A stretch of DNA of 64,000 nucleotides from Acidobacteriota bacterium. Lineage in GTDB: Bacteria > Acidobacteriota > Terriglobia > Bryobacterales > Bryobacteraceae. The position numbers and the translations under genes were made by a program. This document shows, piece by piece, positions 14,956-52,988 of the stretch. The stretch spans positions 1 through 64,000 of the forward strand of contig JAFKEE010000054.1 in the NCBI GenBank assembly GCA_017307505.1, in the 5' to 3' direction. Each line of letters opens with the position of its first letter. Positions within the stretch are counted from its first letter, which is position 1. The notes under the pieces are model-generated. The model was not told the origin of the DNA, did no database searches, and worked only from the letters and a program-made list of their open reading frames with translations.

Positions 14956-15663
14956 ATGCCCGGTGGCCGTTTCCCATCCACGCACTACTCCCTGCTGGTG
15001 GACATGCAAAGCGAGCATGAGCCGCTGCGGCAGCAGGCCCTCGACCGGTTTGTCGAGGCATATTGGAAACCTGCCTATAAGTACATCCGCCTGCGCTGGC
15101 GAAAATCGCAGGAGGATTCCGAAGACCTGACTCAATCCTTTTTTCTTGATTTCCTGGAACAAGGGCTGGTGGCTCGCTTCGACGCCGGCCGGGCGTCGTT
15201 CCGGACTTTTCTGCGGTTGTCACTGGACTCGCAAGTGCAGCGGCGGCATGAATCGGAGGGGCGGCTCAAGCGGGGCGGCGGCACGAGGATGCTTTCGCTG
15301 GACTTTCCCTCGGCGGAGCGGGAGTTGCCGCTGGCCGCTCCGGATGCCACGCCGGAGGAAATCTTCTACCGGGAATGGCAGCGGCAGATGTTCGCGCTGG
15401 CCGTGGAGGACCTGCGGGCGCTGGCCCATGCGAGCCGGCGGGCGGTGCAGTTCGAGATCTTCGAGGCCTATGACCTGGCGGCGGAGCCGAGGCCCAGCTA
15501 CCAGGAACTGGGGCTGCGGCATCAGCTCGCGGTGACCACGGTGACGAATCACCTGGCCTGGGCCCGGCGGGAGCTGCGGCGGTTGATGCTGGAACGGCTG
15601 GCCGGCATTACCTCCGGCGAGAGCGAGTTCCGCAGCGAGGCGCGGAGGCTGTTCTCGCCATGA
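14956..15663 (+). CDS. ECF-like RNA polymerase sigma factor
   Basis: This is a 235-residue sigma-70-family protein. Region 2 is recognisable at SEDLTQSFFLDFLEQGLV and FDAGRASFRTFLRL, and region 4 as a helix-turn-helix at SYQELGLRHQLAVTTVTNHL. It resembles the ECF groups encoded beside Ser/Thr kinases in Acidobacteria and Planctomycetes rather than RpoE types with a classical anti-sigma factor. The ATG at 14956 begins the first protein-like stretch (MPGGRFPSTHYSLL). It overlaps the kinase gene by ATGA, so the two are translated together, and control by phosphorylation is likely but inferred. Confidence 0.82.
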   Translation: MPGGRFPSTHYSLLVDMQSEHEPLRQQALDRFVEAYWKPAYKYIRLRWRKSQEDSEDLTQSFFLDFLEQGLVARFDAGRASFRTFLRLSLDSQVQRRHESEGRLKRGGGTRMLSLDFPSAERELPLAAPDATPEEIFYREWQRQMFALAVEDLRALAHASRRAVQFEIFEAYDLAAEPRPSYQELGLRHQLAVTTVTNHLAWARRELRRLMLERLAGITSGESEFRSEARRLFSP

Positions 15664-27568: not shown

Positions 27569-27572
27569 GGAG

Positions 27573-28058
27573 TCAAGCCTTCACTTGATACTCGCCGCGG
27601 GTGAGGTCCAGGTAAGTATCGAAGGAGATAGCCTCCGGCGCGGGATCGATCATGAGCATCGCGTCGATGGTGAAGTGCAGGTTTCGATCCTGCTTGTAGA
27701 GCGGCTCCTGGGAGGTGACCCGCACCTGTTTGAGCCTTGGCTCAAAGAATTCGACCGCCGTTTCAATGGCGCGCAGCAGGTTTTTCTCATCTTCGGCTGA
27801 GTGCAGGCGGATGGAGGTCATGTCCATCAGGCCGAAGTGGTAGAGCGAGTGGCGCAGTTCGACCATCGACTTCGGCGCCTCCTCTTCGGTCTTGCGGGTA
27901 TTGAAGACCCACTCGAGGTCGCGTTTGATGGATTCCTTGAGGCTGCGGATGGCCTGGGCACGGGAAGGCAGAACTTCGACTTTGACCCACGGCTCGAGGT
28001 CGATCAACCGGTCGAGCAGGGGTTGTTGCAGTGTCTGTTCCGGAATATGCGAAGCCAT
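27573..28058 (-). CDS. tssE: T6SS baseplate gp25-like protein TssE
   Basis: This is a 161-residue gp25-like protein. The conserved core is LRHSLYHFGLMDMTSIRLHS with a family-typical RLKQVRVTSQEP downstream, and SIKRDLEWVFNTRK marks the N-terminal helix. TssE links the sheath to the baseplate wedges. It is packed 3-4 bases from its neighbours tssA and tssF. Confidence 0.92.
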   Translation of the reverse strand: MASHIPEQTLQQPLLDRLIDLEPWVKVEVLPSRAQAIRSLKESIKRDLEWVFNTRKTEEEAPKSMVELRHSLYHFGLMDMTSIRLHSAEDEKNLLRAIETAVEFFEPRLKQVRVTSQEPLYKQDRNLHFTIDAMLMIDPAPEAISFDTYLDLTRGEYQVKA

Positions 28059-28061
28059 AGA

Positions 28062-29954: not shown

Positions 29955-29960
29955 TCTGAA

Positions 29961-30710
29961 TTATTGCGCTGAAACCGCTCCGGCCTCGGTGGAGGCCTCT
30001 GTGGGCGCGCAAATCTGCAGTTCCCGAATCTCCAGGAAGGGGACGACTTCTTCGCCGTCCAGCACGAGCAATTTCTGGCCGAAGGGGATAGACCCTTCGT
30101 CGGTGTCCTGCCAATCGGTGGCGCGGCCCATTTTGACACTGTCGTCCGCATGCTGCCAGGACAGGGGATAGATGGCCGGCATCAACACTTCGCCGAACTT
30201 CTGGTCAGAGAACTGGGCATTGGTGTCGATGAGCGCGGAGGACCAGATGAGGTCGCGCAGGAACCGGGGCTGTTCCATCTTGATGGAGACGACATACTCC
30301 ATCGGCAGCCAGACATACTCACCGGCGAGAAAGACCTCAAAGCGGGCGCCGATTCGCGGGTCGGCGTCCTCAATGGAAGTGAAGGGGCGGCCATTGAGGG
30401 TGCCCGAGAGGGCTTTCGCGCCAGTTTTGCCCGTCGAGTCCGGATAGTTGCGCTTCTGGAAGGCGTTCTGCCTCTCGCGTTCCGCCACGAGGGCGGAGCG
30501 ATAGACGATGGCGCCGACTTCGGCATCCGGACTGGCGGAGGAGAGCAGAGCCAGGTGTTTGGATGCCCGTTCGTACTCTCCCGCCAAACACAACAGTTCG
30601 AAGAGGAAGGTGCGGCGACGGAGGTCGGCCGGGTTGTCCCGGATCTCGCTCCCCAGCGCCTGAATGGCTTCTTTCAGCTTGCCTTCGCGATAAAGCTCAG
30701 CGGCTCCCAC
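29961..30710 (-). CDS. tagJ: T6SS accessory protein TagJ (ImpE family)
   Basis: This 249-residue ImpE/TagJ protein has a TPR-like N-terminal half (AAELYREGKLKEAIQALGSE, RRRTFLFELLCLAGEYERAS) and a C-terminal domain with the family motif ARFEVFLAGEYVWLPMEYV. Two consecutive GTG codons could start it; the one at 30710 lies 6 bases after GGAGG and is preferred to 30713. In other bacteria TagJ binds the sheath protein TssB and ClpV. Its presence is notable because no clpV/tssH gene is in the window. Confidence 0.88.
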   Translation of the reverse strand: MGAAELYREGKLKEAIQALGSEIRDNPADLRRRTFLFELLCLAGEYERASKHLALLSSASPDAEVGAIVYRSALVAERERQNAFQKRNYPDSTGKTGAKALSGTLNGRPFTSIEDADPRIGARFEVFLAGEYVWLPMEYVVSIKMEQPRFLRDLIWSSALIDTNAQFSDQKFGEVLMPAIYPLSWQHADDSVKMGRATDWQDTDEGSIPFGQKLLVLDGEEVVPFLEIRELQICAPTEASTEAGAVSAQ

Positions 30711-30752
30711 CACACACCTCCCTGCTCCCTTGAACGAACTACAGCGAACCAG

Positions 30753-31259
30753 TTAGGACTGAACGTTGGCGCGAAGGTCCCAAGTAGCGGTCTTCTTGGT
30801 GCCTTCCTCGCCCTTGGCCAACTGCGGCAGGTACTCGATGGCGACCTTACCGAAAGCGAACGAGACCGATTCGGTGGGCGTGTCATCGCCGCCAGAGGAA
30901 CCACTCCACTGGATGCTCTCCACGAACACTTCTTCGAAATCGTACTTCAAGTACTCGATCGCCGTACCACCGGCTTTGCGCAGAACGACATGCGCATTGG
31001 TGAAGTGCTGGCCCTTGCAGCAGTTGGTGAACATGGCGGCCGACGAGGCGTCGGTCTTCTTCATCACATTGAAAGAAGAGATGCTCACCTTGCCGGCGCC
31101 GGCGCCACCGGAGGCCGAACCGATCGTGGTCGGATTGCTGGCGCCCCAGGAAAAGCTATAAATTTCAAAAGCTTTCTTATCCTTATAGGTCTTGTCCTGA
31201 GTTTCACCCTCGGCCGTGGGATCGCCCCCCTCGAGCCACATAAATGCGTCATACGCCAT
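30753..31259 (-). CDS. hcp: T6SS tube protein Hcp (TssD)
   Basis: This is a 168-residue Hcp1-family protein. It shows the opening YDAFMWLEGG with TAEGETQDKTYKDKKAFEIY, then FSWGASNPT and GKVSISSFNVMKKTDASSA. It forms the hexameric rings of the inner tube and is also exported. AAGGAG lies 8 bases before the ATG. It is set apart from tssC by a 177-base gap with a strong hairpin and a small palindrome, so it may have its own expression level. Confidence 0.94.
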   Translation of the reverse strand: MAYDAFMWLEGGDPTAEGETQDKTYKDKKAFEIYSFSWGASNPTTIGSASGGAGAGKVSISSFNVMKKTDASSAAMFTNCCKGQHFTNAHVVLRKAGGTAIEYLKYDFEEVFVESIQWSGSSGGDDTPTESVSFAFGKVAIEYLPQLAKGEEGTKKTATWDLRANVQS

Positions 31260-31319
31260 AGTTACTCGCTCCTTTGTCGATCAGATACAGATACACACAC
31301 CCAGAATGGCTGGCCGCTT

Positions 31320-31333
31320 GATTCGGACGAATC
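31320..31333 (-). promoter_or_regulatory. Palindrome upstream of hcp
   Basis: GATTCG-GA-CGAATC is a perfect 6+2+6 inverted repeat about 60 bases before the hcp start, inside the tssC-hcp gap. It could be an operator for a separate hcp promoter. Confidence 0.35.
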
Positions 31334-31394
31334 ATCCACCCGACCTGGAGCGCCAGCCAAAATCGACTCCGGGCCGATTCCAAAGTTCGATTGA

Positions 31395-31427
31395 GACCCG
31401 GATCATCCGGAAGGATGGATCCGGGTC
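31395..31427 (-). terminator. Strong hairpin between tssC and hcp
   Basis: GACCCGGATCATCC pairs with GGATGGATCCGGGTC, a 14-bp stem with one bulged base and a 4-base loop. It begins 10 bases after the tssC stop. It lacks a T tract, so it may be a partial terminator, processing site or 3' stability element that sets tssBC levels apart from hcp. Confidence 0.6.
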
Positions 31428-31436
31428 ACAAAGCCG

Positions 31437-32924
31437 TTAACCAGCCGGTTGCGGGAGATCCGCCACCAGGCGCATAGAAATGGTGAGTTCTTCCAGTTGG
31501 AAGTGCGGCTTGAGGAACGCCACGGCGCGGTAGGCACCGGGCTTGCCCGGCACTTCCATGACGTCGACGCGAGCCTCCGACAGCGGGTACTTCGCCTTCA
31601 TGGAAGGAGAGGCGCTGGCGCTGTCCACCACATAGCCTTTGATCCAGCGGTTCAGGAAGCCTTCGCAATCCTGGCGGGTCATGAAGCTGCCGATCTTGTC
31701 GCGCATCATGGCCTTCAGGTAGTGAGCGAAGCGGGAGACCGCCAGGATGTAGCTGAGGTTGGTCGACAACCGGGCGTTGGCGTTGGCCGAGTCAGTGTCG
31801 TACAACTTTGCCTTCTGGCAGGACTGGACGCTGAAGAACGCGGCGTAATCGGTGTTCTTGCAGTGGACCAGCGGCACGAAGCCGAGGTCGGCCAGTTCCT
31901 TTTCGCGACGGTCCGTGATGGCGACTTCGGTGGGGCACTTCATGGCGAGGTCGCCATCTTCGGTCTTGAAGTTGTGGACCGTGAGGCCTTCCACCTTGCC
32001 GCCGCCTTCGACGCCACGGATGGTGGCGCACCAGTTGTAGCGCGCGAAGGAATCCGTGATGCGGGCGCCCAGGGCGTAGGCGGCGTTGCCCCACAGATAC
32101 TTGTTGTGGTCGGTTCCGTCGACATCCTCTTCGAAATCGAATTCCTCGACGGGGCGGGTGGCCCGGCCGTAGGGATCGCGCATGAGGATGTGGGGCATGG
32201 TGAGAGCGACATAGCGGGCGTCGTCGGAGGAGCGGAACGACTTCCACTTGGCGTACTCGGTGGTATCGAAGACCTTCGCCAGGTCGCGGGGCGCGGCCAG
32301 ATCGGCGAAGGAATCCAGGTTGAACATGGTGTTGTTGGTGGCGGAGATGAACGGGGCGTGGGCGGCCGCCGCTACCTGCGAAACCTTCTGCAACAGTTCC
32401 ATGTCCTCGGGGCCCTTGCCGAACTCGTAGTCGCCGATGAGAGCGCCGAAGGGGTGTCCGCCGAAGATGCCGAACTCTTCCTCGTACACCTTCTTGAACA
32501 TCGCGCTCTGGTCGAACTCGGAGGCGCGCTGCAGGTCGCGGAGCAGTTCCTTCTTCGAGACGTTGATGACCTTGATCTTCAACATCTCGCTGCACTCTGA
32601 GTTGCTGACCATGTACTTGAGGCCACGCCAGCTCGCTTCCAGCTTCTGGAAGGCTTCATTGTGCATCACTTCGTTCAGCTGCAACGAAATGAGGTGATCG
32701 ATCTGCGCGATACGGGCGTTGATCATCGCCTCGGAATCGCGCGAAAGGGTCATCGATCCATCAAGGAACTGCTGGACGAATTCCTTCACCAGCGCCTTGC
32801 CCTGCTCCCGGGTATCGGGATCGCGAGCCAGGCGGCCTTCGTCGACGATCTGGTCGAGAAGGCTCTTTTCTACTACAGACTCTGTCGTCGAAGCCGCTGC
32901 CGCGGCTTGCGCTTTATCACTCAT
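31437..32924 (-). CDS. tssC: T6SS sheath large subunit TssC
   Basis: This is a 495-residue TssC/VipB/ImpC. The core helix INARIAQIDHLISLQLNEVM, EASWRGLKYMV, FGALIGDYEF and CPTEVAITDRREKELADLGF are all family landmarks. The N-terminal 20 residues are Ala/Ser-rich. It overlaps tssB by 8 bases. With TssB it builds the contractile sheath. Confidence 0.96.
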   Translation of the reverse strand: MSDKAQAAAAASTTESVVEKSLLDQIVDEGRLARDPDTREQGKALVKEFVQQFLDGSMTLSRDSEAMINARIAQIDHLISLQLNEVMHNEAFQKLEASWRGLKYMVSNSECSEMLKIKVINVSKKELLRDLQRASEFDQSAMFKKVYEEEFGIFGGHPFGALIGDYEFGKGPEDMELLQKVSQVAAAAHAPFISATNNTMFNLDSFADLAAPRDLAKVFDTTEYAKWKSFRSSDDARYVALTMPHILMRDPYGRATRPVEEFDFEEDVDGTDHNKYLWGNAAYALGARITDSFARYNWCATIRGVEGGGKVEGLTVHNFKTEDGDLAMKCPTEVAITDRREKELADLGFVPLVHCKNTDYAAFFSVQSCQKAKLYDTDSANANARLSTNLSYILAVSRFAHYLKAMMRDKIGSFMTRQDCEGFLNRWIKGYVVDSASASPSMKAKYPLSEARVDVMEVPGKPGAYRAVAFLKPHFQLEELTISMRLVADLPQPAG

Positions 32925-33438
32925 TGCTCCCTCCCTTATCGCCGGAGAACTCGCCCTTCAGCTTCTCCAGCTTATCGGCGCTGCGCACGGTATCCATCAG
33001 CAGTTCATCGAGCTTGTCGTTGCCCTGCAGGCTGCCGCGCAGGTCCGACAAGCGCGTCCGGAGATCCAGCAGCTCCTTGAGCGGCTTCACCTGCTTCGCC
33101 ACGTTCGCGGGTTCAAAATCGTCCATGCTCTGGAAGCGAAGGTCGACCTTGAGCTGGCCGGCGTTGGGATCCTCGCTCAACTTGTTTTCGACCGAAAACG
33201 CCAGGTGCGGCTTCATCGCGGCCAGAACGTTGTCGAAGTTGTCGAGGCTCACCTCTACGAACTTTCGATCCTTCAGCCGGGGCAGCGGTTCCTCGGGCAT
33301 GCCCGTGAAATCGCCGAATACGCCCATCACGAAGGGCAGTTCTTTCTTTTCAATTGCGCCACCCGTTTCCACATCGTAGGTGATGTGGACACGAGGAGAG
33401 CGAACTCGATCCAGTTTGTGTTGAAGACTCTCAGCCAT
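32917..33438 (-). CDS. tssB: T6SS sheath small subunit TssB
   Basis: This is a 173-residue TssB/VipA/ImpB. It opens ESLQHKLDRVRSPRVHITYD, then ELPFVMGVFGDFTG, FVEVSLDNFDNVLAAMKPHL and LKVDLRFQSMDDFEP. GGAG lies 8 bases before the ATG. It is the first gene of the long minus-strand T6SS operon, about 90 bases behind a good promoter. It pairs with TssC in the sheath. Confidence 0.96.
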   Translation of the reverse strand: MAESLQHKLDRVRSPRVHITYDVETGGAIEKKELPFVMGVFGDFTGMPEEPLPRLKDRKFVEVSLDNFDNVLAAMKPHLAFSVENKLSEDPNAGQLKVDLRFQSMDDFEPANVAKQVKPLKELLDLRTRLSDLRGSLQGNDKLDELLMDTVRSADKLEKLKGEFSGDKGGSNE

Positions 33439-33674: not shown

Positions 33675-33696
33675 CACCAGTCCGCGGGGACTAGTG
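33675..33696 (-). terminator. Hairpin at the stop codon of the methyltransferase
   Basis: CACCAGTCC (33675-33683) pairs with GGACTAGTG (33688-33696) with one wobble and a GCGG loop. It overlaps the stop codon of the methyltransferase gene and separates it from the tssB promoter. There is no T tract. Confidence 0.4.
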
Positions 33697-35208
33697 CACC
33701 AGTTCCTCGACCGGCGCTTCACGGCGCGGCAGAGGGAACTGATCCAATTCGACAAAACCGTTTGAAATCAGGCTGTGCATGACGGCACAGAAGTGCTCGA
33801 ACGTGACACCGGGGCCGACGACATCCTGCGCGCGCAGCTCGTCGAAGATTTCGCCGGTTGTCTTCTGGCCGTTACATTCGCCTACCAGCACGGCCAGCCA
33901 GGCCTCGGCGTTGGCGGTGAAGACAAATGGATACTTGGCGCGCAGGCGATAGCGGGCCGGTTCCAGACCATTCGGTCCCGGCTTGTGCACGACCTCGAGT
34001 TCCATTTCCGGCGCCAGATGGGGCCGAGTGCGCTTCAGAGCAGCGGGCATCGAGGGCTGGATGGCCAGCTTCTCCCAGCCGCGAACCCACTCCACGGCCT
34101 CTCCCCAAACCGTTTCGGCCTTCATACAGCGGGCCGTCGCCACGCGACGTGGCTGCTCTACCCGCTCGATGACCACAGTGCCGTAGAAGAGCGCGGTCAC
34201 TTTCAACCGTTCAAAGAGTTCGGAGCGCGGACCCAGCTCGCCCAGCTTGCCCTTCGCTTTGACGACGGCTTCCAGCACCACCGACGGACGTTTGCCAATC
34301 TCGGTGGCCACCAGGAGTACATCGAATTCGCCGCTGGACGCGCCCAACCACTTGCGGATGCGTTCCTCCAGCTTCTCGCCTTCCCTATCGGTGGCTGTGG
34401 TGACGCAGTACAACCGCCCACCGGGCTTGAGGTACTTTGGCAGGTCTTCGACGATCCGCCGGAAGATCTGTTCGCCATCCTCGCCGCCATCCCGGAAGAG
34501 CATATGCTTCTTGCCGTCCGGAACATAAGGCGGATGGGCCACGATGCAGTCGAACTGGAGGCCATCCACGGCGCCGAAGAGGTCGCCCTGGACACCGACC
34601 ACCTGTTCCAGCCCATTCAGTTTGGCGTTGAAATTAGAGTAGTGGACCGAGCGGGCGCCGAGGTCAGCGGCATAGACGCGCTTAGCTCCGCGGGTCGCGG
34701 CCAGCAGGCCTGCAATGCCCGTCCCACAACAGATGTCGAGAAAATCCTCGCCTGGATCTTTAGGTTGTATCGAAAGGAAACGGCCGGTGTTCTCGGTGAT
34801 CGCCGCATACACGAGATCCTCCGGCAGATCTTCGCCGACTAGGTTGGTGCGGTCCGAGACCACATACAGGCCGGCGACCGGGTACAGCAGAACTGTCGCC
34901 TTCCAGCCCGAGTCGCCCTTGCGGCGTACCACGTCAAGTTCAGAAAGGAGTTCCAGCAGGCGGGCGGGGAGATTGGCGAGGAGGACCGATTCCTCTACCG
35001 TGACTTCGTCCATGAGCAGCCGGATGAGAGCGTCCAGCGCGTCGTTGACCTCGGGGCCTGTGGGCCGACCCTCCTTCAGATCCTTAAATTCGTAAATTGT
35101 CTTGGATCCGGTGCGCTGGCAGACCGCGTCTTCCGAATATCCAAGGCTCCTCAGGCCCTCCCGTAACTCCGCAAACTGACCGGGAGTGCCGACCTTCAAT
35201 GGGACCAT
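33691..35208 (-). CDS. SAM-dependent methyltransferase at T6SS locus
   Basis: This 505-residue protein has a central class I methyltransferase domain. The SAM motif is DICCGTGIAGLLAA and the motif IV is VAHPPYVPDG, close to the (N/D)PPY of HemK/RsmC-type enzymes that methylate Gln or base nitrogens, but with His first. A long N-terminal region precedes it, and the C-terminus (FTANAEAWLAVLVGECNGQK to SNGFVELDQF) resembles a small winged-helix/PqqD-like domain. The ATG at 35208 is chosen because GAGGAG lies 6 bases upstream; the longer frame adds 56 residues. It lies between tssB and tssK1 and could modify a T6SS component, which is speculation. Confidence 0.78.
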   Translation of the reverse strand: MVPLKVGTPGQFAELREGLRSLGYSEDAVCQRTGSKTIYEFKDLKEGRPTGPEVNDALDALIRLLMDEVTVEESVLLANLPARLLELLSELDVVRRKGDSGWKATVLLYPVAGLYVVSDRTNLVGEDLPEDLVYAAITENTGRFLSIQPKDPGEDFLDICCGTGIAGLLAATRGAKRVYAADLGARSVHYSNFNAKLNGLEQVVGVQGDLFGAVDGLQFDCIVAHPPYVPDGKKHMLFRDGGEDGEQIFRRIVEDLPKYLKPGGRLYCVTTATDREGEKLEERIRKWLGASSGEFDVLLVATEIGKRPSVVLEAVVKAKGKLGELGPRSELFERLKVTALFYGTVVIERVEQPRRVATARCMKAETVWGEAVEWVRGWEKLAIQPSMPAALKRTRPHLAPEMELEVVHKPGPNGLEPARYRLRAKYPFVFTANAEAWLAVLVGECNGQKTTGEIFDELRAQDVVGPGVTFEHFCAVMHSLISNGFVELDQFPLPRREAPVEELVH

Positions 35209-35239
35209 CCGCTGCTCCTCCGAAGAACCGCTGTTGGAC

Positions 35240-35245
35240 AGTATA
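35240..35245 (-). promoter_or_regulatory. -10 box of the methyltransferase gene
   Basis: On the minus strand TATACT lies about 25 bases before the SD-ATG unit at 35208, with a TTGCTC 17 bases further upstream as a weak -35. This placement supports the 35208 start. Confidence 0.45.
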
Positions 35246-35399
35246 CTCAATGCCGCGCCAAGAGCAAATGCCCTATTTTCTATGTCTTTGGGAGTTCTAT
35301 ACTTGAATATCCGATTAAGGTACGAAATCCTACCGCCATCCTTCTTTTTTGCACCCGCCCCTGTGCGTTCCACCATTCCTCTGGTACCTTGAGATCCAG

Positions 35400-36755
35400 A
35401 TGCATCGCCTGGAACCCGTCGTCTGGACTAAAGGGACCATCCTCAACGCCCAACATTTGCAGCTTCAGGACCGCTACCTGGAGGACTCGCTTCGCTTCCG
35501 CCTGAACGCCACCCAGTTCCAGCCATGGGGCTTCACGAAGCTGAGGATCGACGATGAAGCGCTGGCCGCCGGCATTATCAATCTGACGCAGGCGTCCGGC
35601 ATCTTCCCGGATGGCCTGCTTTTTGACGTGCCGGAGTTGGATCCGGGCCCTCCGCCGAAGCCGATCGGGGCGAATTTTGGGCCGGAAGATACCAAGCTGG
35701 ACTTTTGCCTGGCCATCCCCCACTACCGGGAACGCGGCATCAATGTTGCCGGACTCCAGAGACAGGTGGATGCGCGCTACCGGGCGGAGATCGCCATGGT
35801 CAGCGACGAGAACACGGGCCGTTCCGAAAAACCCGTCACCCTGGCCCGGAAGAATCTGCGGATCATTGTGGAAGGCGAGAGCGTCGAGGGCATGTCCACG
35901 ATTCCCGTGGGGCGCATCCTGCGTACCCCCGCCGGCCTGTTTGAACTCGACTCGCGGTGCGTGCCGCCGCTGCTCGACTTCCACGCCAACGACTATCTTT
36001 CCGCGATCGCCCGCCGCCTGGTGGAGATTCTCTCTGCCCGCAGCGATGCCCTTTCCGGTTTGCGCCGGCAGAAGAACCAGAGCCTGGCGGACTTTACGGC
36101 TTCCGACATCGCCAGTTTCTGGCTGCTCTATACAGTGAACTCGGCCCTGCCGATCTTCCAGCACCTGCATGCCGCTCCGGGGATCCATCCGGAGCTGATT
36201 TATAGAGAGATGCTGGCGCTGGCGGGCGCTTTGACCGCGTTTTCGACCAAACTGCAGCCACGCAACCTGCCGATTTACGACCACGAGAACCTGGGCGCCT
36301 GTTTTACCGAACTGGACGAGGCGCTGCGGATGCTGCTGACCACCGTGGTGCCCAGCAACTTCGTGTCACTGCCGTTGAAGCAGGTGCAGCCGTCCATCTA
36401 TGCCACCAGCATCGATCGCGACGACTATTTCAAGAACACGCGGATGTACCTGGCCATCCAGGCAGAGACGAACCAGGCGGAACTGATCCGCCGGACTCCG
36501 CAACTGGTGAAGATCTGCTCGGCCGACTACATCGAGCACCTGGTGCAGACCGCACTGCCGGGCATTCCGCTGCGGCACGTCCCTGCCCCGCCGAGTTCGA
36601 TCCCGGTGAAGTTGAACTACAACTATTTCAGCCTGGAGCAGAAGGGCGGTCCGTATGAGGCCGTTGTGCGGGCCCGGAACCTGGCGGCATACGTCCCGGC
36701 CGATCTGCCGAATCCGCAGATGGAATTGATCATCCTGCTGCCCAAGGCGGATTAG
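35400..36755 (+). CDS. tssK: T6SS baseplate protein TssK, copy 1 (divergent)
   Basis: This is a 451-residue TssK/ImpJ/VasE. The N-terminal landmark is altered: VVWTKGTILNAQHLQLQDRY instead of the usual W-x-EGM-x-L-x-P-xHFQ. Later blocks are conserved: SGIFPDGLLFDVP, IASFWLLYTVNSALP, RNLPIYDHENLGACF and VPADLPNPQMELIILLP. TssK joins the baseplate to the TssJLM membrane complex. The ATG at 35400 starts the recognisable domain. It is divergent from the methyltransferase gene and overlaps the convergent MFS gene by 4 bases. A second tssK is at 47444. Confidence 0.9.
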   Translation: MHRLEPVVWTKGTILNAQHLQLQDRYLEDSLRFRLNATQFQPWGFTKLRIDDEALAAGIINLTQASGIFPDGLLFDVPELDPGPPPKPIGANFGPEDTKLDFCLAIPHYRERGINVAGLQRQVDARYRAEIAMVSDENTGRSEKPVTLARKNLRIIVEGESVEGMSTIPVGRILRTPAGLFELDSRCVPPLLDFHANDYLSAIARRLVEILSARSDALSGLRRQKNQSLADFTASDIASFWLLYTVNSALPIFQHLHAAPGIHPELIYREMLALAGALTAFSTKLQPRNLPIYDHENLGACFTELDEALRMLLTTVVPSNFVSLPLKQVQPSIYATSIDRDDYFKNTRMYLAIQAETNQAELIRRTPQLVKICSADYIEHLVQTALPGIPLRHVPAPPSSIPVKLNYNYFSLEQKGGPYEAVVRARNLAAYVPADLPNPQMELIILLPKAD

Positions 36756-44840: not shown

Positions 44841-45051
44841 CTGGATTGAAGAGCCATATTAACAAAAGGACCCGACAAACGCGCCGCCGTTCCCAGAATT
44901 AGCGGCAGTGAAGATCCAGGCGGGTGGAAGCTGAAGGAATCGCTATTTCGAAGAGAGAAGGCAGGCGGTCTTTTATCATGCGACAGCAATGTACCTGTAT
45001 TTATCCTGACGAATACACGTTGATTGCTGCCAAGGCCGGCTCAAGGAAAGA

Positions 45052-45083
45052 GGGCGCAGGCAGGCGCATTGCCGCCTGCGCCC
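45052..45083 (-). terminator. Intrinsic terminator of GEFTR-repeat gene
   Basis: GGGCGCAGGC (45052-45061) pairs with GCCTGCGCCC (45074-45083), with further GGC/GCC pairing inside. On the minus strand the stem is followed by TCTTTCCTT. It lies 8 bases after the stop codon. Confidence 0.75.
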
Positions 45084-45091
45084 TGGAGTCA

Positions 45092-47329
45092 TTAACGCAA
45101 CAGCCAGAAGGCGACTACGGCCACGATGGCCAGCACCAGCAGGATGCTCAGCCCGATGATGAGCGGCATCATGGGGTTTTTCGCGGGCACCGCCGGCTTG
45201 GCGGGGGCAGCCACGGCAGGTGGTGCGGGCGCAGGGGGCCGGACGGGAGTCGACATCATGCGCGTGAATTCACCCGCTCCACTGTGGACGGTAGGCGGGG
45301 TCGGGGCGGCCGGAGGTGTAGGGGCGATAGGCAGGGAACTCTGCATCTGTCCGTAAGGCGTGCTGGGCATGCGAGGGGCTTCGGTGGGGACAGGAGTGCC
45401 GGAGAAGATGCGGGTGAATTCGCCGGGCGCGGCCGGCGCGGCAGCGGCGGGCGGCGGAGTAGGCGCCGGCGGAGTGAAGGTCTGGCCGCTGTCGAACATG
45501 TGCATGAGGTCGTCGCGCTTGGGTTCGTTCCACGAGCCGGGGCCCGGCTGGGGTTTGGGCACAAAGGGGGCGTCCGCGTCGGGCGGCAGGACTGGGGCGG
45601 ATCCTGGCGTTGCGGCGCCGGGCTTCCAGGAAGCGCGCAGCATGCGGGTGAATTCACCGGGCTCGGCGGAGGGCGGAGCCGCGGCGGGAGAAGAAGGGGG
45701 CGGCCATGCGGGTGCCGGGGTGGATTGGGGCGGCGGCGCCGGCCGGTCCCAGGACAGGGTGGACGGAGACGCTGCGGATGGCGTTTCGCCCAACTGGGGC
45801 GCGCGCATCATGCGGGTGAACTCGCCCGTCTGGCCCTGCGACGAAGCGGGCGGCGGGGGTGCGGATACAGGCGGCGGAGGAGGAACCGCGGCAGGCAGCG
45901 GCGGTGGCGCTGCCGGTTGAGCGGGGGCCACGGAGGAAAAGTCGCTCTGGCGGATCATCCGGGTGAATTCGCCGGCTTCCGCCTGGGGCGGCGGAGCGGC
46001 GGTAGCGGGCGGCGGAGGCGCAGTGGGCAGCGGAGGCGGGGGCGCCGGCTTGGGCGTTGTTACGGAAGCGAACTCGCTCTGCCGGATCATGCGCGTGAAC
46101 TCCCCTGCTTCGGCCTGGGGTGGTGGCGGAGGCGTGGCGGCCGCCACGGGCGGCGGAGGAGGAGCAGCGGGGACAGGCGGGGGCGCCGCCGGTTGGGGTG
46201 TGGTCACAGAGGCGTATTCGCTTTTCCGCATCATGCGCGTGAACTCTCCGGCTTCGGCCTGAGGTGGTGGCGGAGGAGGTGCGACCGTCACGGGCGGAGG
46301 AGGAGCCTCGGGCACAGGCGCGGGGGCCGCCGGTTGGGGCGTAGTCACAGAGGCGTATTCGCTTTGCCTCATCATGCGCGTGAACTCACCAGGCTCCGAT
46401 CCAGCGGCGGCCGTTGGCAGCGGAGGGGGCGCCACCGGGAGCGGCGGGGGCGGTGGTGCGGCGGCCTGGGCCGGAACAGGGGGCGGAGTGGCAGGCTTGG
46501 CGGCCGGCGCGGATCCAAACTGGCTGGCGTGGAGCAGGCGCGTAAACTCACCGGGTTCCGAGGAGGACTGCGGCGGCGCGGGTTCGGGCTTGTATTGCGG
46601 AATCTCCGGCGCGTGAGACGCCGGTTCGGGAGGCGTGGGCAGCGGCGGAGGAACGGGCGCGGCGGCGGTGGGCTCGGCCGGCGGCGCCGGAGCCTGGGCC
46701 ATCTGCATCAGGCGCGTGAACTCGCCCGGAGACTGGCTGGAGACGGGGGGTACCTCTTCGGAAGCCGGGGGCGGCGGCGGGTTTTGCTGGGCGGCCTTGA
46801 ATTCACCGGCATCCCACTGGGGAATCCTGATTCGTGTCTTGCCGGAGGGCGAACCGGGCATGGCCCATTGTCCGGCCTTGCCGAGATCCTGGGATGTGGC
46901 GGGTGGAGGCGGGGGCGCCGAAGGCAGCGGGGGCGGCTCAGGCGGAGCGGCGGGCGGAGCAACCTCAGGGGCGTGGGCCGGCGGCGGCTCCGGGACCTGC
47001 CCGGCCGCGATCGCATCGGCCTCGCCGTGGGCCAGGCCGGCCGACGCGCCCAGCCAGGTACGAAACAGTACGGCGCCCGGCAGAATCGAAGTCACGATGA
47101 AGACGGCGCCCTGCCATTCCCCAATCTCGACGATGTGGCACTGTTGTTCCGAGGGAAGCCGGCCGGCCTGCTTGAGCAGGGGCTCGTCTTCCGGGCCGCG
47201 TCCAGCCGGGAACAGATGCAGCAGCAGGATGCGCCCCGAGGTGCGCTCCTGCACGGGGACTGTCTGCTCGACGCTGACCGTTGGGTCCGCCAACGGCTGC
47301 AGAAATTCATATTTGCGGTTCAGATCCAT
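45092..47329 (-). CDS. Tail-anchored multivalent GEFTR-motif protein
   Basis: This 745-residue protein has three parts. Residues 1-105 form a folded domain resembling the end of a kinase N-lobe and hinge (CHIVEIGEWQGAVFIVTSIL then PGAVLFRTWL), but no glycine loop, HRD or DFG is present. Residues 110-715 are disordered and Pro/Ala-rich and carry ten exact GEFTR motifs starting at 202, 260, 314, 361, 409, 453, 502, 558, 636 and 686, plus a degenerate GEFK at 175. Residues 720-743 are one membrane helix with a 2-residue tail (LLR), so the rest faces the cytoplasm. The ATG at 47329 has GGAGG just upstream; the longer frame adds 70 residues with no such site. It is divergent from tssK2-tssL-tssM. 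The function is unknown; scaffold is the best guess. Confidence 0.8.
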   Translation of the reverse strand: MDLNRKYEFLQPLADPTVSVEQTVPVQERTSGRILLLHLFPAGRGPEDEPLLKQAGRLPSEQQCHIVEIGEWQGAVFIVTSILPGAVLFRTWLGASAGLAHGEADAIAAGQVPEPPPAHAPEVAPPAAPPEPPPLPSAPPPPPATSQDLGKAGQWAMPGSPSGKTRIRIPQWDAGEFKAAQQNPPPPPASEEVPPVSSQSPGEFTRLMQMAQAPAPPAEPTAAAPVPPPLPTPPEPASHAPEIPQYKPEPAPPQSSSEPGEFTRLLHASQFGSAPAAKPATPPPVPAQAAAPPPPPLPVAPPPLPTAAAGSEPGEFTRMMRQSEYASVTTPQPAAPAPVPEAPPPPVTVAPPPPPPQAEAGEFTRMMRKSEYASVTTPQPAAPPPVPAAPPPPPVAAATPPPPPQAEAGEFTRMIRQSEFASVTTPKPAPPPPLPTAPPPPATAAPPPQAEAGEFTRMIRQSDFSSVAPAQPAAPPPLPAAVPPPPPVSAPPPPASSQGQTGEFTRMMRAPQLGETPSAASPSTLSWDRPAPPPQSTPAPAWPPPSSPAAAPPSAEPGEFTRMLRASWKPGAATPGSAPVLPPDADAPFVPKPQPGPGSWNEPKRDDLMHMFDSGQTFTPPAPTPPPAAAAPAAPGEFTRIFSGTPVPTEAPRMPSTPYGQMQSSLPIAPTPPAAPTPPTVHSGAGEFTRMMSTPVRPPAPAPPAVAAPAKPAVPAKNPMMPLIIGLSILLVLAIVAVVAFWLLR
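45254..46807 (-). repeat. GEFTR short-motif repeats in Pro-rich linkers
   Basis: There are ten copies of G-E-F-T-R followed by (M/L/I)(M/L/I/F), spaced 44-78 residues apart. Copies 3-6 share a longer unit, GEFTRM(M/I)R(Q/K)S(E/D)(Y/F) then (A/S)SV, with 44-48-residue periods that suggest recent tandem duplication. The outer copies differ in linker sequence but keep the motif, as expected if the motif itself is under selection. Confidence 0.9.
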
Positions 47330-47381: not shown

Positions 47382-47443
47382 AGCGGACGCAATTTGCGCG
47401 CGTCTGACTTTGGACCGCAGTGCACTGGGAGCATCGCCGGAAC

Positions 47444-48781
47444 ATGAGATTCCTTTCTAGGGTGGTCTGGTCGGAGGGCATGTACCTTGGTCCGCACCAC
47501 TTTCAGGTACAGGGACGCTACTTTGAAGACTCTCTTCACTTTGCAGCCTCAGCGCTCATGGGCCAGCCGTATGGGCTCATGGGCTGCCTCCTGGACCCTG
47601 ACGCCCTCTCCAACGGCACGCTTTCCGTTATTCATGCCCGAGGTATCTTTCGGGACGGACTACAATTCCACATGCCGGAGTGCGACGCGGCTCCGGCGCC
47701 TCGCGCCATCGGGGATCTGTTCCCGCCCATCCGGAGTTCGGTAGTCGTGCTGCTGGGCGTGCCGGAACGGCTGGAGAACGGACCGAACTGCTCCATGAAC
47801 GAGGAAGGGTCGCAAACCCGCTATGTGGCCCGGAACCGGCCCTACGCGGACGAGACCACGGGCCGGGACGAGCGGACCATTGAGCTGGGGGGCAAGGACT
47901 TCCGGCTGTTGCTGGACACTGAGCCGCAGGACGGGCTGGTGTGTCTGCCGCTGGCTCGCGTGATGCGCGACGGGGCGGGCCAGTACGTCTTCGATCCCTC
48001 TTTCGTGCCGCCGTGCCTCCAGATCGGCGCCAGCGAGTACCTGATGCTGCTATTGCGGCGCCTGATCGAGATCCTGGGGGAAAAGAGCGCGACACTGAGC
48101 CGGGCTCCGGCCGGCGGCGGCGACCGATCTTCCCGGGAGGTCGCCAATTTCTGGCTGCTGCATTCCGTCAACAGCGCCCTGGCCGCGCTGCGGCATCAGT
48201 GGACTTCCAAGCGGGGGCACCCGGAGGAGATTTTCCTCGAGCTGTCCCGGCTGGCGGGCGCGCTTTGCACGTTCAGCCTCGATTCGCACCCGCGCAACCT
48301 GCCGTCGTTCGATCACGACAATCCGGGACCGTGTTTCGACGCGCTGGACTATCACATCCGCACCCACCTGGAGATCACGGTGCCGACGCGCTGCATCGAG
48401 ATCCAACTGGTGCAGACCGCGCCGTGCTTCTACGAAGGCGAGATCACCGACACCCGCTGTCTCGACCGTTCGTCCTGGGTGATCGACCTGCATGCCACCA
48501 CCGGCGACGCCGACCTGATCGAGAAGGCGCCGCGGCTGGTGAAAGTCTGCTCCGCCAAATTTATCGGCGAACTCGTCAAACGAGCCATGGCGGGCCTGCC
48601 CATGGCGCATCTGCCCATGCCGCCGCCGTCCGTCCCGATGCGGGTTGAATCGCAGTATTTCAGCGTTTCGAAATCCGGTCCCTTCTGGGAGAACATCATG
48701 GTGACCCGCCGTGTGGGCATCTATGTGCCGGCGGAGTTGCCGGATCCTGACCTGAAGCTCTTTGTCGTCCTGGATGCGTGA
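47444..48781 (+). CDS. tssK: T6SS baseplate protein TssK, copy 2 (canonical)
   Basis: This is a 445-residue TssK. The N-terminal landmark is typical: VVWSEGMYLGPHHFQVQGRY. Later blocks match copy 1: RGIFRDGLQFHMPE, VANFWLLHSVNSALA, RNLPSFDHDNPGPCF and YVPAELPDPDLKLFVVL. It is encoded with tssL and tssM, so this copy is probably the one that contacts the membrane complex. The ATG at 47444 begins at the conserved domain. Confidence 0.93.
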   Translation: MRFLSRVVWSEGMYLGPHHFQVQGRYFEDSLHFAASALMGQPYGLMGCLLDPDALSNGTLSVIHARGIFRDGLQFHMPECDAAPAPRAIGDLFPPIRSSVVVLLGVPERLENGPNCSMNEEGSQTRYVARNRPYADETTGRDERTIELGGKDFRLLLDTEPQDGLVCLPLARVMRDGAGQYVFDPSFVPPCLQIGASEYLMLLLRRLIEILGEKSATLSRAPAGGGDRSSREVANFWLLHSVNSALAALRHQWTSKRGHPEEIFLELSRLAGALCTFSLDSHPRNLPSFDHDNPGPCFDALDYHIRTHLEITVPTRCIEIQLVQTAPCFYEGEITDTRCLDRSSWVIDLHATTGDADLIEKAPRLVKVCSAKFIGELVKRAMAGLPMAHLPMPPPSVPMRVESQYFSVSKSGPFWENIMVTRRVGIYVPAELPDPDLKLFVVLDA

Positions 48782-48791
48782 GGCCTAGCCT

Positions 48792-49508
48792 ATGTCACAG
48801 CCCCAAACTGCGGAAGCGGCCTCGCGCCGTCCCTCTAATCTGCCTTTGATCCTGCAGGAGGCGATCACGGCGACCGTGCGCATCCGTTCGATGCCGCAGG
48901 CGGTTTCCAGCGAGGAGGCCTTCCGGCAGCAGATGCGGGAGGCACTCAAAATCGCCGCACAGGAGGCACGCACGCCGGGCGGCTATTCACCGGAAGACAT
49001 CAAGATGGCGATCTTCGCGGTGGTTGGTTTCCTGGACGAATCCATCCTCAAGGCAGGCAACCGGGCCTTCCGGGAGTGGCCCACGAAGCCGCTGCAAGAG
49101 GAGTTCTTCGGCACGCACCTGGCGGGTGAGCTGTTCTTCCAGAACCTGGAGCGGCTGTTGCGCATGGAAGACTCCTACGAGCTGGCCGATGTTCTCGAGG
49201 TCCACCAGTTGTGCATGCTGCTGGGTTTCCGGGGCCGCTATAGCGCGCGCAGCCCGATGGAGTTCCAGGGCGTCCTGAACACGGTAGCGGAAAAGATTGC
49301 CCGGATTCGGGGCGAGTACGGCGCGCTGACCGAGGCGTGGCGGTTGCCGAATGAGCGGATCGTGCAGGGCGCGGATCCGTGGAGCAAGCGGCTGTTGTAT
49401 ACAGCCATCGGGTTCGCGGCGGTCACGCTGCTGCTGTTCGCGGTGTTCAAGATGTCGCTGATTTCCGGGGTTTCCGATGTGGCGGCCATTCCGGTGCGGG
49501 TGCGGTAG
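48792..49508 (+). CDS. tssL: T6SS inner-membrane protein TssL (DotU)
   Basis: This is a 238-residue DotU-family protein. The cytoplasmic helical domain includes IFAVVGFLDESILKAG, EEFFGTHLAGELFFQNLERL, and the signature LEVHQLCMLLGFRGRYS. A single C-terminal membrane helix (LLYTAIGFAAVTLLLFAVF) follows, with no OmpA-like extension. It starts 10 bases after tssK2 and ends 6 bases before tssM. It forms the membrane complex with TssM. Confidence 0.95.
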   Translation: MSQPQTAEAASRRPSNLPLILQEAITATVRIRSMPQAVSSEEAFRQQMREALKIAAQEARTPGGYSPEDIKMAIFAVVGFLDESILKAGNRAFREWPTKPLQEEFFGTHLAGELFFQNLERLLRMEDSYELADVLEVHQLCMLLGFRGRYSARSPMEFQGVLNTVAEKIARIRGEYGALTEAWRLPNERIVQGADPWSKRLLYTAIGFAAVTLLLFAVFKMSLISGVSDVAAIPVRVR

Positions 49509-49514
49509 GAGTTC

Positions 49515-52500
49515 ATGATGCGAAAAGTCGTTCTCATTACGGTCCTGATCCTCCTGCTCTGGCTGGTTCTGGCGTGGTTCCTCGGCACGTGGCTAGGCTT
49601 GCACGGGGGCATTTTGTGGGGCCTGCGGATCTCTTTGTGGGTGATCGGCCTGATCACGGCCGGCTTCGTCATCTGGTTCTTCTGGCGGAAAGCCAAGCGG
49701 GAACGGGAATTGGAAGAAGGCATGGACGCCAACGAGGGCGACGAGATCGCCACCCTGTTGCGTGAGGCCGAGAAGAAGCTGACCGCCGCCCGAAATGGCA
49801 AAACCACGGGTCTGGCCACGACGCCTGTCGTGCTGATCGCAGGGGAACCGGGCAGCGCCAAGACGAGTGTCGTGCTGAGTTCCGGCATCGATCCGGAGCT
49901 CATCGCGGGCCGGGTGCACCAGGACAATGTCGTGACACCGACCCGGGTTGCCAACGTCTGGTACGCCAATGGCATTGCCATGGTGGAGGCGGGCGGTGCG
50001 CTCACCCAGGACAAGGCGCTTTGGAACCGGCTGATCCGGGGTCTGCGGCCGGGCAGGCTGGCCGGAATCTTCGGCTCCGGCGGCCGGGCGCCAAGGGCGG
50101 CGCTGGTTTGTTTTGATGCTGAGACTTTCGCACATCCGGGCGGAGCGGAGGCTGCTTCGGCGACGGCTAAGAAGCTGCGGCAGAGACTCGCCGCGCTGAG
50201 TGAGGATCTGGGCGTCAACCTGCCCGTATACGCGCTGTTCACGCGCATGGACCGGATTCCCGGGTTCCTGGAGTATGTCCGCAACCTGAGCAATGAAGAA
50301 GTGAGCCGGGCGCTGGGCGCTACTCTGCCGCTCTCTGCCGGGCAGCAAGCCAGGACCTACGGCGAAGAGCAGACGGCGCGGATCTCGGCTGCGCTGGAAA
50401 GCCTGTTCAAGGAGCTTGCCAATTACCGGCCGCCCCTGCTGGGCCGTGAGACCGAGGCGAATGCCCTGCCCCCGACCTATGAGTTCCCGAGGGAATTCCG
50501 GAAGCTGCAGGCGCCCATCGTGCAGTTCCTGCTGGACCTGTGCCGGCCCAGCCAGCTCTCGACCGGGCCGTACCTGCGCGGGTTCTACTTTTCGGGTGTG
50601 CGGCCTGTGGTCATCCAGGAGTTCTCGGGCGCCAGCGACCTGGCTTCCCCCATGCAAACCCAGGGTGGCGTGCCGCAGGCCACTTCGATCTTCCGAATCG
50701 GGCTGGAGGCGAACAAGCCGGTGGCGCACCAGGCTCCTTCCGTCACGACACGGCGTGTGCCGCAGTGGACGTTCCTGGGTGCGCTGTTCCACGATGTGAT
50801 GCTGGCCGACAGGCTCGCCCTGGGCGGCAGCACCTCCAGCACGAAGACGAATACGCTGCGCCGCGTGGGACTGGCGCTGGTGTGCTTCCTCTGCCTGGTA
50901 TTCAGCATCGGGATGATCGTCTCGTACGTGCGGAACCGCGCGCTGGAGACCCGGGTGCTGGAAGCAGCGAAGGGCATCAACTCCTCCGAATCGACCGGCG
51001 CCGACCTGGCCTCCGCCGATGCGCTGCGCAAGCTGGATACCCTGAGAAGCTCGCTCGTCACGCTGGACTCATACAAGCGCGACGGTTCTCCCTGGAGCTT
51101 CCACTGGGGTCTCTACACCGGCGACAGCCTCTACCAACCGGCTCGCAAAGTCTACTTCGACCGCTTCCGCCAGTTGCTGTTCGGGCAGACGCAGACCTCA
51201 ATGCTGACGTTCCTGAGGCAACTGCCGCCGGCACCAGGGCCGGAATATAACCCGACCTACGACGCGTTGAAAGGCTACCTCATCACCACCGCGCACCACG
51301 ACAAGAGTTCGTCGAGCTTCCTGACTCCGGTGCTGATGAAGTTCTGGAGCGAAGGCCGCAGTGTCGACGCCGAGCGCATGAAGCTGGCGCAGGATCAGTT
51401 CGACTACTACGCGCAGGCGCTTCAGGCCGAGAATCCATATTCGAACGAGAACGACGCCGCAACCATCGAGACGGCCCGCCACTACCTGGCGCAGTTCGGC
51501 GACCTGATGCGGGTCTACCGCGCCATGCTGGCCGACGCCGCCAAGAGCGGTCCGCCCATTAACTATCACAAGCGTTTTCCGGGCGCCGACCAGGCGATGA
51601 CGGACCAGCGCGAAGTGCAGCCGGCGTTCACCAAAGCCGGCTGGGAGTTCATGAAGGGTGCGATCAAGAATCCTGACCGCTACTTCAGCGGCGAGCAGTG
51701 GGTATTGGGCGAACAGGTTACCTCGAAGATCGATCGCGCCAAGCTGGTCGAGCAGTTGCAGCAGAAGTACAACGCGGACTTCACCGGAGAGTGGCGGGCG
51801 TTCCTGCGCGCCGCGTCGGTGCAGCGGTATGCGAACATCGCCGATGCTTCGAAGAAGTTGTCGCTGCAGACGGGGCCGCAGTCCCCGCTGCTGGCGCTGA
51901 TCTGGCTGATCTCGCAGAACACGGCGGTGGATGGGCCGACCGTAGCGGAGGTGTTCCAGCCAGCGCAGGCGGTAGTGCCTCCGGCGAGTACGGATCGCTA
52001 CATCGCTCCACCGAACCAGAACTACATGAACGCCTTGCTGGGCCTGCAGACGTCACTGGAGTCGATTGTGGGCCAGCCGGCGCCGAATGAGATGGTGGCG
52101 TCCCAGATCCTGGGCAATGCTTCCACGGCGAAACTGGCGGCAAGGCAACTGGCGCAGACGTTCCGGCTGGATCCGGAGGGCCACACGGAAGCGCAGGTGC
52201 AGAAGCTGCTGGAAGACCCCATCACGAACGTCGAAGGTCTGTTGAAGGGTCTCGGACCGGCGGAACTGAACGGCAAAGGCAAGGGTGTCTGCGCACAGAT
52301 GAGCGCCGTCTGGAGCAAGTATCCGTTCGACCCGAACGCCACGGCCGAGGCCACACTGGCCGAGGTGAACGGCCTGCTGCACAAGCCGGATGGCGCCTTG
52401 TGGGTGTTCTATGAAACCAGCCTGTCGAAGCTGCTGCAGAAGCAAGGCTTGCAGTACGTGCCGAATCCGGCGGGCGGCATGAACCTGAATCCGGCGTTTG

Positions 52501-52988
52501 TGTCCTTCTTCAACCAGGCTGCGACGCTGGCCGATGCTCTATATGCGGGCGATTCCAAGGATCCGCATGTGTCGTATACGTTGAAGCCCGCTCCGAGCGA
52601 GGGGATCCAAAGCCTGTCTCTGCGCCTGGACGGCCAGGCAGCCACGTTCAGCGCGAACGACGCAACGCCGAAGCGCTTCACCTGGCAGGGTCCGGGTGCG
52701 CACGAAGCGAAGGCCGGTGTGCGGTTCGCCGGCAGCACGGACGTCACCTGGTTTGACCGGGACGGCGTTTGGGCTCCTTTCCACTTCTTCACGGAAGCCG
52801 AGCAGTTCCAGCCGTCGGGGAACGGGTATACGGTGTCGTGGATTATCCGGGCCGGTAAAGAGGCGATGAAGCTGCCCAACGGCAAGCCGCTCACGGTGCG
52901 GTTCGACCTCAACATGGAGGGAGCGCCGCCGATCTTCATGAAAGGCTACTGGCGCGGGCTGCGCTGCGTCAGCGAAGTCGCCAAGTAA
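49515..52988 (+). CDS. tssM: T6SS inner-membrane protein TssM (IcmF)
   Basis: This is a full-length 1157-residue IcmF-family protein. Two N-terminal membrane helices (about residues 6-24 and 38-57) are followed by a cytoplasmic NTPase-like domain with an intact Walker A GEPGSAKTS (110-118). A third membrane helix is at about 450-471 (LALVCFLCLVFSIGMIVSYV). The large periplasmic part ends in a beta-rich C-terminal domain (FSANDATPKRFTWQGPG, DVTWFDRDGVWAPFHFF). With TssL it spans the inner membrane and usually contacts the lipoprotein TssJ, which is not encoded nearby. Confidence 0.95.
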   Translation: MMRKVVLITVLILLLWLVLAWFLGTWLGLHGGILWGLRISLWVIGLITAGFVIWFFWRKAKRERELEEGMDANEGDEIATLLREAEKKLTAARNGKTTGLATTPVVLIAGEPGSAKTSVVLSSGIDPELIAGRVHQDNVVTPTRVANVWYANGIAMVEAGGALTQDKALWNRLIRGLRPGRLAGIFGSGGRAPRAALVCFDAETFAHPGGAEAASATAKKLRQRLAALSEDLGVNLPVYALFTRMDRIPGFLEYVRNLSNEEVSRALGATLPLSAGQQARTYGEEQTARISAALESLFKELANYRPPLLGRETEANALPPTYEFPREFRKLQAPIVQFLLDLCRPSQLSTGPYLRGFYFSGVRPVVIQEFSGASDLASPMQTQGGVPQATSIFRIGLEANKPVAHQAPSVTTRRVPQWTFLGALFHDVMLADRLALGGSTSSTKTNTLRRVGLALVCFLCLVFSIGMIVSYVRNRALETRVLEAAKGINSSESTGADLASADALRKLDTLRSSLVTLDSYKRDGSPWSFHWGLYTGDSLYQPARKVYFDRFRQLLFGQTQTSMLTFLRQLPPAPGPEYNPTYDALKGYLITTAHHDKSSSSFLTPVLMKFWSEGRSVDAERMKLAQDQFDYYAQALQAENPYSNENDAATIETARHYLAQFGDLMRVYRAMLADAAKSGPPINYHKRFPGADQAMTDQREVQPAFTKAGWEFMKGAIKNPDRYFSGEQWVLGEQVTSKIDRAKLVEQLQQKYNADFTGEWRAFLRAASVQRYANIADASKKLSLQTGPQSPLLALIWLISQNTAVDGPTVAEVFQPAQAVVPPASTDRYIAPPNQNYMNALLGLQTSLESIVGQPAPNEMVASQILGNASTAKLAARQLAQTFRLDPEGHTEAQVQKLLEDPITNVEGLLKGLGPAELNGKGKGVCAQMSAVWSKYPFDPNATAEATLAEVNGLLHKPDGALWVFYETSLSKLLQKQGLQYVPNPAGGMNLNPAFVSFFNQAATLADALYAGDSKDPHVSYTLKPAPSEGIQSLSLRLDGQAATFSANDATPKRFTWQGPGAHEAKAGVRFAGSTDVTWFDRDGVWAPFHFFTEAEQFQPSGNGYTVSWIIRAGKEAMKLPNGKPLTVRFDLNMEGAPPIFMKGYWRGLRCVSEVAK

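Follow-up and report, generated by a model that had tools for sequence, protein, structure and literature searches.

The window analysed here, a stretch of 64,000 nucleotides from an Acidobacteriota bacterium of the Bryobacteraceae, lies on contig C44, one of the 75 contigs that make up a 9.4-Mb genome, and carries the genes of a type VI secretion system (T6SS). Pfam models identify tssG, tssF, tssE, tssA, tagJ/impE, tssC and tssB in a block on the reverse strand (24720-33438), which also includes hcp (30753-31259, reverse strand), named by eye. Beyond this block are a gene for a methyltransferase with an MTS domain (33691-35376, reverse strand) and, on the forward strand, tssK1 (35349-36755; PF05936 at C44:35454-36734, E 8.0e-137), the second TssK of the system. 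A further unit on the forward strand consists of tssK2 (47420-48781; PF05936, E 1.6e-125), tssL (48792-49508; PF09850, E 1.3e-41) and tssM (49515-52988; PF06761, E 3.1e-55); tssM reaches 386.1 bits with TIGR03348, just below the cut-off of that model (388.15). No kinase gene lies downstream of tssM in the window. Elsewhere in it, a 294-residue open reading frame (ORF; 15660-16544) reads by eye like a kinase, with a glycine-rich loop and the letters VALK, about 6 kb beyond a vgrG-like ORF that was also named by eye.

Divergent from the tssK2-tssL-tssM unit is the gene studied here, a reverse-strand ORF with an ATG start that encodes 745 residues (45092-47329). Its first 97 or so residues (residues 1-97, 47039-47329, reverse strand) have a protein-kinase N-lobe fold according to a predicted model and a profile, and this lobe is homologous to the Ser/Thr kinases that adjoin such genes in relatives. 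The catalytic lysine of strand β-3, invariant in ten adjacent kinases, is replaced by histidine in the window protein, and the C-lobe is absent. On the basis of the modelled fold, the protein is probably derived from a kinase, of which it keeps the N-lobe without the C-lobe. The full kinase domain (PF00069) matched neither the window protein nor four N-domains of the family in Pfam, and searches with Pfam, NCBIfam and PHROGs models gave no match to the window protein, those for the Tss families (Pfam, NCBIfam) and the FHA domain (PF00498, Pfam) included. The N-lobe is present in most members found, but as those at L183, L188 and L189 do without it, it is not essential.

The remainder of the protein is a long chain that displays the motif GEFTR and ends in a hydrophobic, helix-like stretch, MMPLIIGLSILLVLAIVAVVAFWLLR (residues about 719-745, 45095-45175, reverse strand), read from the sequence as a membrane helix. 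A comparable C-terminal end is present in the aligned relatives. This stretch makes it likely that the protein is an N-in tail-anchored protein of the inner membrane with its motif chain in the cytoplasm. Over residues 101-700, the composition is 29% proline and 17% alanine (46% together), in agreement with the Pro/Ala-rich chain described in the sequence-only reading. That reading also gave the gene its own terminator. A stem of 13 pairs does lie at 45084-45051 (45051-45084, reverse strand); however, its T tail is poor, and the claim is weak because shuffles of the region give nearly as many terminator-like sites (1.8 expected, two found), so that as a class such sites are near chance.

The ten exact motifs (residues 202-690, 45260-46726, reverse strand) start at residues 202, 260, 314, 361, 409, 453, 502, 558, 636 and 686, which reproduces the spacing of 44-78 residues given earlier. 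A degenerate GEFK (residue 175, 46796-46807, reverse strand) precedes them and is kept in two orthologs. Within the 78-residue gap of the array sits another degenerate copy, DLMHMF (residue 607, 45494-45511, reverse strand), which reads DLMGMF and DLMNMF in two orthologs. The sequence-only reading had described the ORF, the ten exact copies, GEFK and the divergent position of the gene, all of which were found again here by ORF and motif positions, family matches and strands; it had overlooked both DLMHMF and the kinase lobe. Its observation is confirmed as correct and understated. GEFTR did not occur in any of 2000 shuffles of the window protein.

Comparison of codons with two orthologs shows how differently the motifs and the linkers have fared. 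In the ortholog from G006, 50 motif codons carry 20 synonymous differences and no amino-acid change, whereas 503 linker codons carry 165 synonymous differences and 178 amino-acid changes; the earlier statement that the linkers diverge while the five residues stay constant is thereby borne out. With the ortholog from G005, the figures are 18 and 2 for 40 motif codons and 126 and 172 for 419 linker codons. That alignment has gaps at ten of the 50 motif positions, so the number of motif copies varies. A tandem duplication (141/144 bp, 2.7 copies, 81% matches, 46006-46395) covers part of the array and accounts for the likeness of some neighbouring units, not for the conservation of the motif. Motif codons differ synonymously among the copies within the window protein and also between species, which argues that the motif is kept by selection.

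The same picture emerges from the family as a whole. In a non-redundant set of 83 family proteins, an iterated motif model found 702 copies, where each shuffle replicate gave 1.4; the copies have a median spacing of 39 residues and the consensus [PA]-G-E-F-T-R-M-F-Q. Members carry from about 2 to 19 copies. The threonine position holds Thr in 674 copies and Ser in nine, an upper view because the model prefers its seed consensus, Thr included; the residue three positions after it is F in 601 copies, M in 39, L in 34 and I in 20. In the window array, the final residue is M, I or L in nine of the ten copies. A second copy of the gene in the same genome, on contig C20 and also within a T6SS cluster, encodes GEFTRMF, GEFTRLF, GDFTRMF and weaker copies; the best copies of this second protein end in F. 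Coding-pattern matches on contigs C16, C32, C49 and C56 of this genome were set aside as single matches in unrelated frames. By eye, many members, e.g., those at L028 and L015, have a GATxxF element (GATQLF, GATGAF) before the last motif; in family members the N-lobe is followed by an element resembling RAGxWRVP. With multivalent short-linear-motif scaffolds the GEFTR protein shares many copies of one short motif, borne on a chain that is probably disordered. A repeated motif that is conserved against diverging linkers is the mark of such scaffolds and is what the codon comparison and the 83-protein model reveal; the motif copies do not vary freely in relatives. Unlike such scaffolds in general, it is bacterial, has a tail anchor and is tied to a single secretion system.

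When the window protein was used as a BLAST query, 16 of 61 genomes gave a match, its own among them. A profile of the N-domain, applied to 200 genomes of the taxonomic family, gave 119 homologs in 109 genomes at E 1.1e-9 or better, a cut-off chosen in this analysis because true kinases, too, match the profile near E 1e-6; the motif was confirmed in part of these 119. Ninety-three of them, from 87 genomes in 40 genera, have a tssL no more than 4 kb away, and without exception the two genes are divergent. The median 5'-to-5' distance of 1532 bases leaves room for one tssK. One of the 93 (G069) is linked to a tssL fragment of 74 positions in a genome that gave no TssK match. Protein and tssL occur together in 103 genomes, the protein only in six, tssL only in 30 and neither in 61 (odds ratio 35, Fisher p 1.7e-21, a value that does not count independent events because the genomes are related). 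Two of the six genomes with the protein but no tssL match have TssK. These results strongly support the link to the T6SS, which the sequence-only reading had left open, and with this conserved linkage we consider the association of the GEFTR family with the T6SS very likely.

The count of 30 genomes with tssL only is too high, because members lacking the N-lobe escape the N-domain profile. Among ten of these loci that were checked, a member was found at L183, L185, L187, L188 and L189 and none at L190-L192, with L184 and L186 placed in neither group. G024, from the same set, has a cut-off member, and G067, G081 and G148 have a member each. Altogether, nine of the 30 genomes carry members that lack the N-lobe, are diverged or are cut off. 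No member was seen in the loci of G110, G144, G165, G166, G187, G219, G020 and G142, several of which end at contig ends.

Two further sets of loci agree with this systematic count. In 40 loci, hand-picked by the length of their contigs, a multi-motif ORF is present in 37, in 31 of which it is divergent from a tssK2-like gene; the other three are L067, L077 and L097, in which the gene picker took other frames. None of the 40 loci has a second multi-motif ORF, and among the ORFs selected in them the sole protein with one or two strict motif matches is a family member. The second set comprises named loci, of which 80 were kept from 89 relatives and 79 have a multi-motif ORF; they overlap partly with the surveyed genomes. 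All 80 relatives are Acidobacteriota, mostly Bryobacterales, Bryobacteraceae, Terriglobia and relatives of Solibacter. Of the named loci, 66 extend 1.5 kb or more upstream, and 55 of these have a divergent tssK, so that tssK2 is the divergent neighbour in most relatives, as in the window. The methyltransferase gene is often near the GEFTR gene in relatives: it lies downstream in 13 of the 56 named loci that cover 3 kb or more on that side, and in G095 and G212 it adjoins the GEFTR gene where no T6SS gene can be seen. One or two Ser/Thr kinases are encoded behind tssM in many relatives, e.g., L060:3290-4972 and L060:4983-6140. Two of those scanned have an FGE-sulfatase domain; others have a Pro-rich linker followed by a C-terminal hydrophobic stretch.

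The presence of the protein also follows two-TssK systems. Of the 144 family genomes with a TssK match, 117 have at least two, and the protein is found in 105 of these 117 versus four of the 27 with one match, which in some of them is weak. These figures include six genomes in which it was found by hand (100 and three without them); three of the 12 two-TssK genomes first scored as lacking the protein were later found to have it. The idea that the number of motifs might be related to that of TssK copies was set aside for want of evidence.

Outside the family, the pattern GEFTR[ML]F matched only the genome of the window among 396 drawn from the phylum. The pattern is narrow, for in that genome it finds the gene on C20 and misses the one in the window. 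TssL matches, one of them below the curated cut-off, were obtained in 39 of 246 other genomes of the phylum, all 39 of which belong to the set searched with GEFTR[ML]F; a T6SS therefore does not need the GEFTR motif. In four genomes of f8, another family of the same class, the gene in the corresponding position, which is either divergent from tssK-tssL-tssM or next to tssK1, encodes a Pro-rich, tail-anchored protein with a shifted motif. The motifs are GGFTSLLRTLG in G394, PGSFTQMFQALD and PGSFTQMFRTLD in G471 and G573, and GGFTKMFQSLS and GGFTQLLRTLS in G736, with phenylalanine at position 3 in 17 of 19 copies collected by a pattern that requires Thr. The membrane-proximal copy is nearer to the form of the Bryobacteraceae (PSEFTRI, PGEFTRI), except in G394, where it reads PSEYSKI, with Ser for Thr. 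In G471 and G736 the gene lies between two tssK genes, and in G394 and G573 one of the two is in view. No Pfam domain was found in the three complete f8 proteins scanned. A search of the class with an f8 protein matched five of 220 genomes, that of the query included; four matches are at a T6SS locus, and around the fifth (G625, L214) no T6SS gene is visible. In another f8 genome with a T6SS (G402, L215), no motif protein was detected by a filter that also missed the one in G736. As the copies shift as a set between lineages, changing together within a protein and differing from lineage to lineage, their sequences fit coevolution with one partner.

To our knowledge, even model systems have yet to show how a T6SS nucleates and positions its assembly. 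We suggest, with somewhat more for it than against it, that the GEFTR protein is a kinase-derived, tail-anchored, multivalent scaffold of T6SS assembly, akin to the PpkA/Fha condensates of Acidovorax, and that it probably brings components of the secretion machine together at the inner membrane. As an accessory protein tethered to that membrane, it would show its motif copies on a cytoplasmic Pro/Ala-rich chain, and each copy would bind the same site on one T6SS part, most likely one encoded by the divergent TssK2-TssL-TssM unit. Many copies of that part would then be held close to the membrane complex, and assembly would be nucleated there. From the sequences and their comparison with better-studied systems we infer the topology, the binding, the identity of the partner, the recruitment and a condensate, and with these the role as a clustering scaffold that had been suggested at the outset. 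TssK2 is the leading candidate for the partner because its gene is the usual immediate neighbour and the presence of the protein follows two-TssK systems, while TssL and TssM are equally linked. The T6SS loci L190-L192, which belong to the family and have no GEFTR protein, count against a scaffold of this kind.

In Acidovorax citrulli, condensates of the kinase PpkA at the inner membrane are reported to recruit T6SS components and promote assembly, and Fha is a T6SS assembly scaffold (PMC12607579). In Agrobacterium, PpkA phosphorylates TssL at Thr14, after which Fha binds (PMC3953482). The GEFTR protein resembles the PpkA so described in having a kinase-related domain, a membrane anchor and a gene in a T6SS cluster; the gathering of parts at the inner membrane is reported for PpkA and proposed for the GEFTR protein. 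In contrast to PpkA, the latter has an N-lobe only, with His at the position of the catalytic Lys and no C-lobe, and its bulk is a repeated short motif, a feature not mentioned for PpkA in the available part of PMC12607579. With Fha/TagH (PMC3953482, PMC12607579), it would share the role of a T6SS-linked scaffold and may replace it; unlike Fha/TagH, it has no FHA domain, is membrane-anchored and would be the donor of motifs and not their reader. The loci that pair a GEFTR gene with TssK2 were checked in nine genomes, and none of them contains an FHA gene. In the tenth, G095, an FHA-DUF4123 gene lies beside TssK1 (L204:8696-9934), 1.8 Mb away from the GEFTR gene. Among six T6SS loci of other Acidobacteriota families (L198-L203), two encode FHA proteins (L198, L202); the scan covered ORFs picked by eye, which proved to be these FHA proteins, together with a kinase of L199 and the L200 motif protein. 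Given the precedents in Acidovorax and Agrobacterium, and the absence of FHA genes from the nine genomes' GEFTR loci in contrast to these two other-family loci, the GEFTR protein is proposed as the scaffold, which would make it the counterpart in these bacteria of the PpkA/Fha condensates. All ten genomes checked have FHA genes elsewhere, so an FHA partner acting in trans is possible.

Such a partner is central to the main rival explanation, which is possible, though rather unlikely in our judgement, and compatible with a scaffold. The motif threonine would be a phosphosite: a T6SS Ser/Thr kinase would phosphorylate the array and a phosphothreonine reader, be it a T6SS component or the product of an FHA gene at another locus, would bind the array in its phosphorylated form only, giving a graded assembly switch like that of PpkA-TssL-Fha in Agrobacterium (PMC3953482). 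The near invariance of the threonine (674 Thr versus nine Ser in 702 copies, from a model that favours Thr) speaks for it, as does the acidic residue at -2 with a large hydrophobic one at +3, which resembles the Ser/Thr protein kinase motif of Mycobacterium tuberculosis as given in PMC6888350 and PMC5686395. That motif, however, comes from a distant phylum, and the membrane-proximal copy of G394 has Ser in place of Thr. A kinase gene is present on the tssK2-L-M side in 18 of the 35 named loci that reach 7.5 kb or more upstream, but the other 17 have none there, the window has none after tssM, and the T6SS loci with GEFTR in nine genomes are free of FHA genes.

It is less probable still that the protein is a pseudokinase-type regulator, whose N-lobe would dock on the adjacent kinases or on TssM while the array only keeps it at a distance from the membrane or, as a decoy substrate, titrates the kinase. 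The homology of the N-lobe to those kinases, some of which likewise have a C-terminal hydrophobic stretch, points in this direction; yet members devoid of the N-lobe keep the array, the anchor and the place, and the three complete f8 proteins have no Pfam domain. We find it most improbable that the protein has no role in the T6SS, in which case its place would reflect a common divergent promoter region preserved by chance, and its motif would bind a general cell factor. In favour of this reading are the 26 of 119 homologs that are not within 4 kb of tssL, although 20 of these are in genomes with tssL elsewhere, often on another contig, and the paralogs in a glycosyltransferase locus. One of these paralogs, with three motifs, is in G149, a genome that is 97% complete and gave no TssK or TssL match; the locus is common to G149 and G210. 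Paralogs in the glycosyltransferase locus of genus g25 are at L179:4563-5450, L182:4350-4970 and L093:9557-11056. The paralog in G149 argues against an exclusive link with the T6SS, but the protein is not common in genomes without one, as six of the 109 genomes that carry it gave no tssL match. Chance is further contradicted by the odds ratio of 35 (p 1.7e-21), by linkage that extends over 40 genera and into a second family, and by G095, which keeps the protein despite scattered T6SS loci.

A more detailed form of the scaffold proposal is correspondingly tentative. The half-kinase may act as a membrane-tethered 'sticker and spacer' chain in which GEFTRMF is the cognate ligand of a part of two-TssK systems, with TssK2 leading, and which replaces PpkA/Fha as nucleator. 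The motif and its partner would then change jointly, both from lineage to lineage and from one to the other of the two systems in a cell. We noticed no earlier description of such a protein in literature searches that included T6SS with Solibacter. Among the matches listed, the letters GEFTR occur in papers that are unrelated by title; T6SS with Bryobacteraceae returned one soil survey, and T6SS with Acidobacteria and threonine phosphorylation returned none.

The GEFTR protein may thus represent a new kind of T6SS component, so far found in soil-dwelling members of one class of Acidobacteriota, although we advance this only tentatively. A family with up to 19 copies of a single, well-delimited seven-residue motif encoded beside the membrane-complex genes offers a direct test of which part is recruited. 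If the proposal is true, a kinase remnant has been reused as a scaffold in these bacteria, and the joint shift of its motif copies from lineage to lineage would provide a natural experiment on the evolution of bacterial multivalent ligands.
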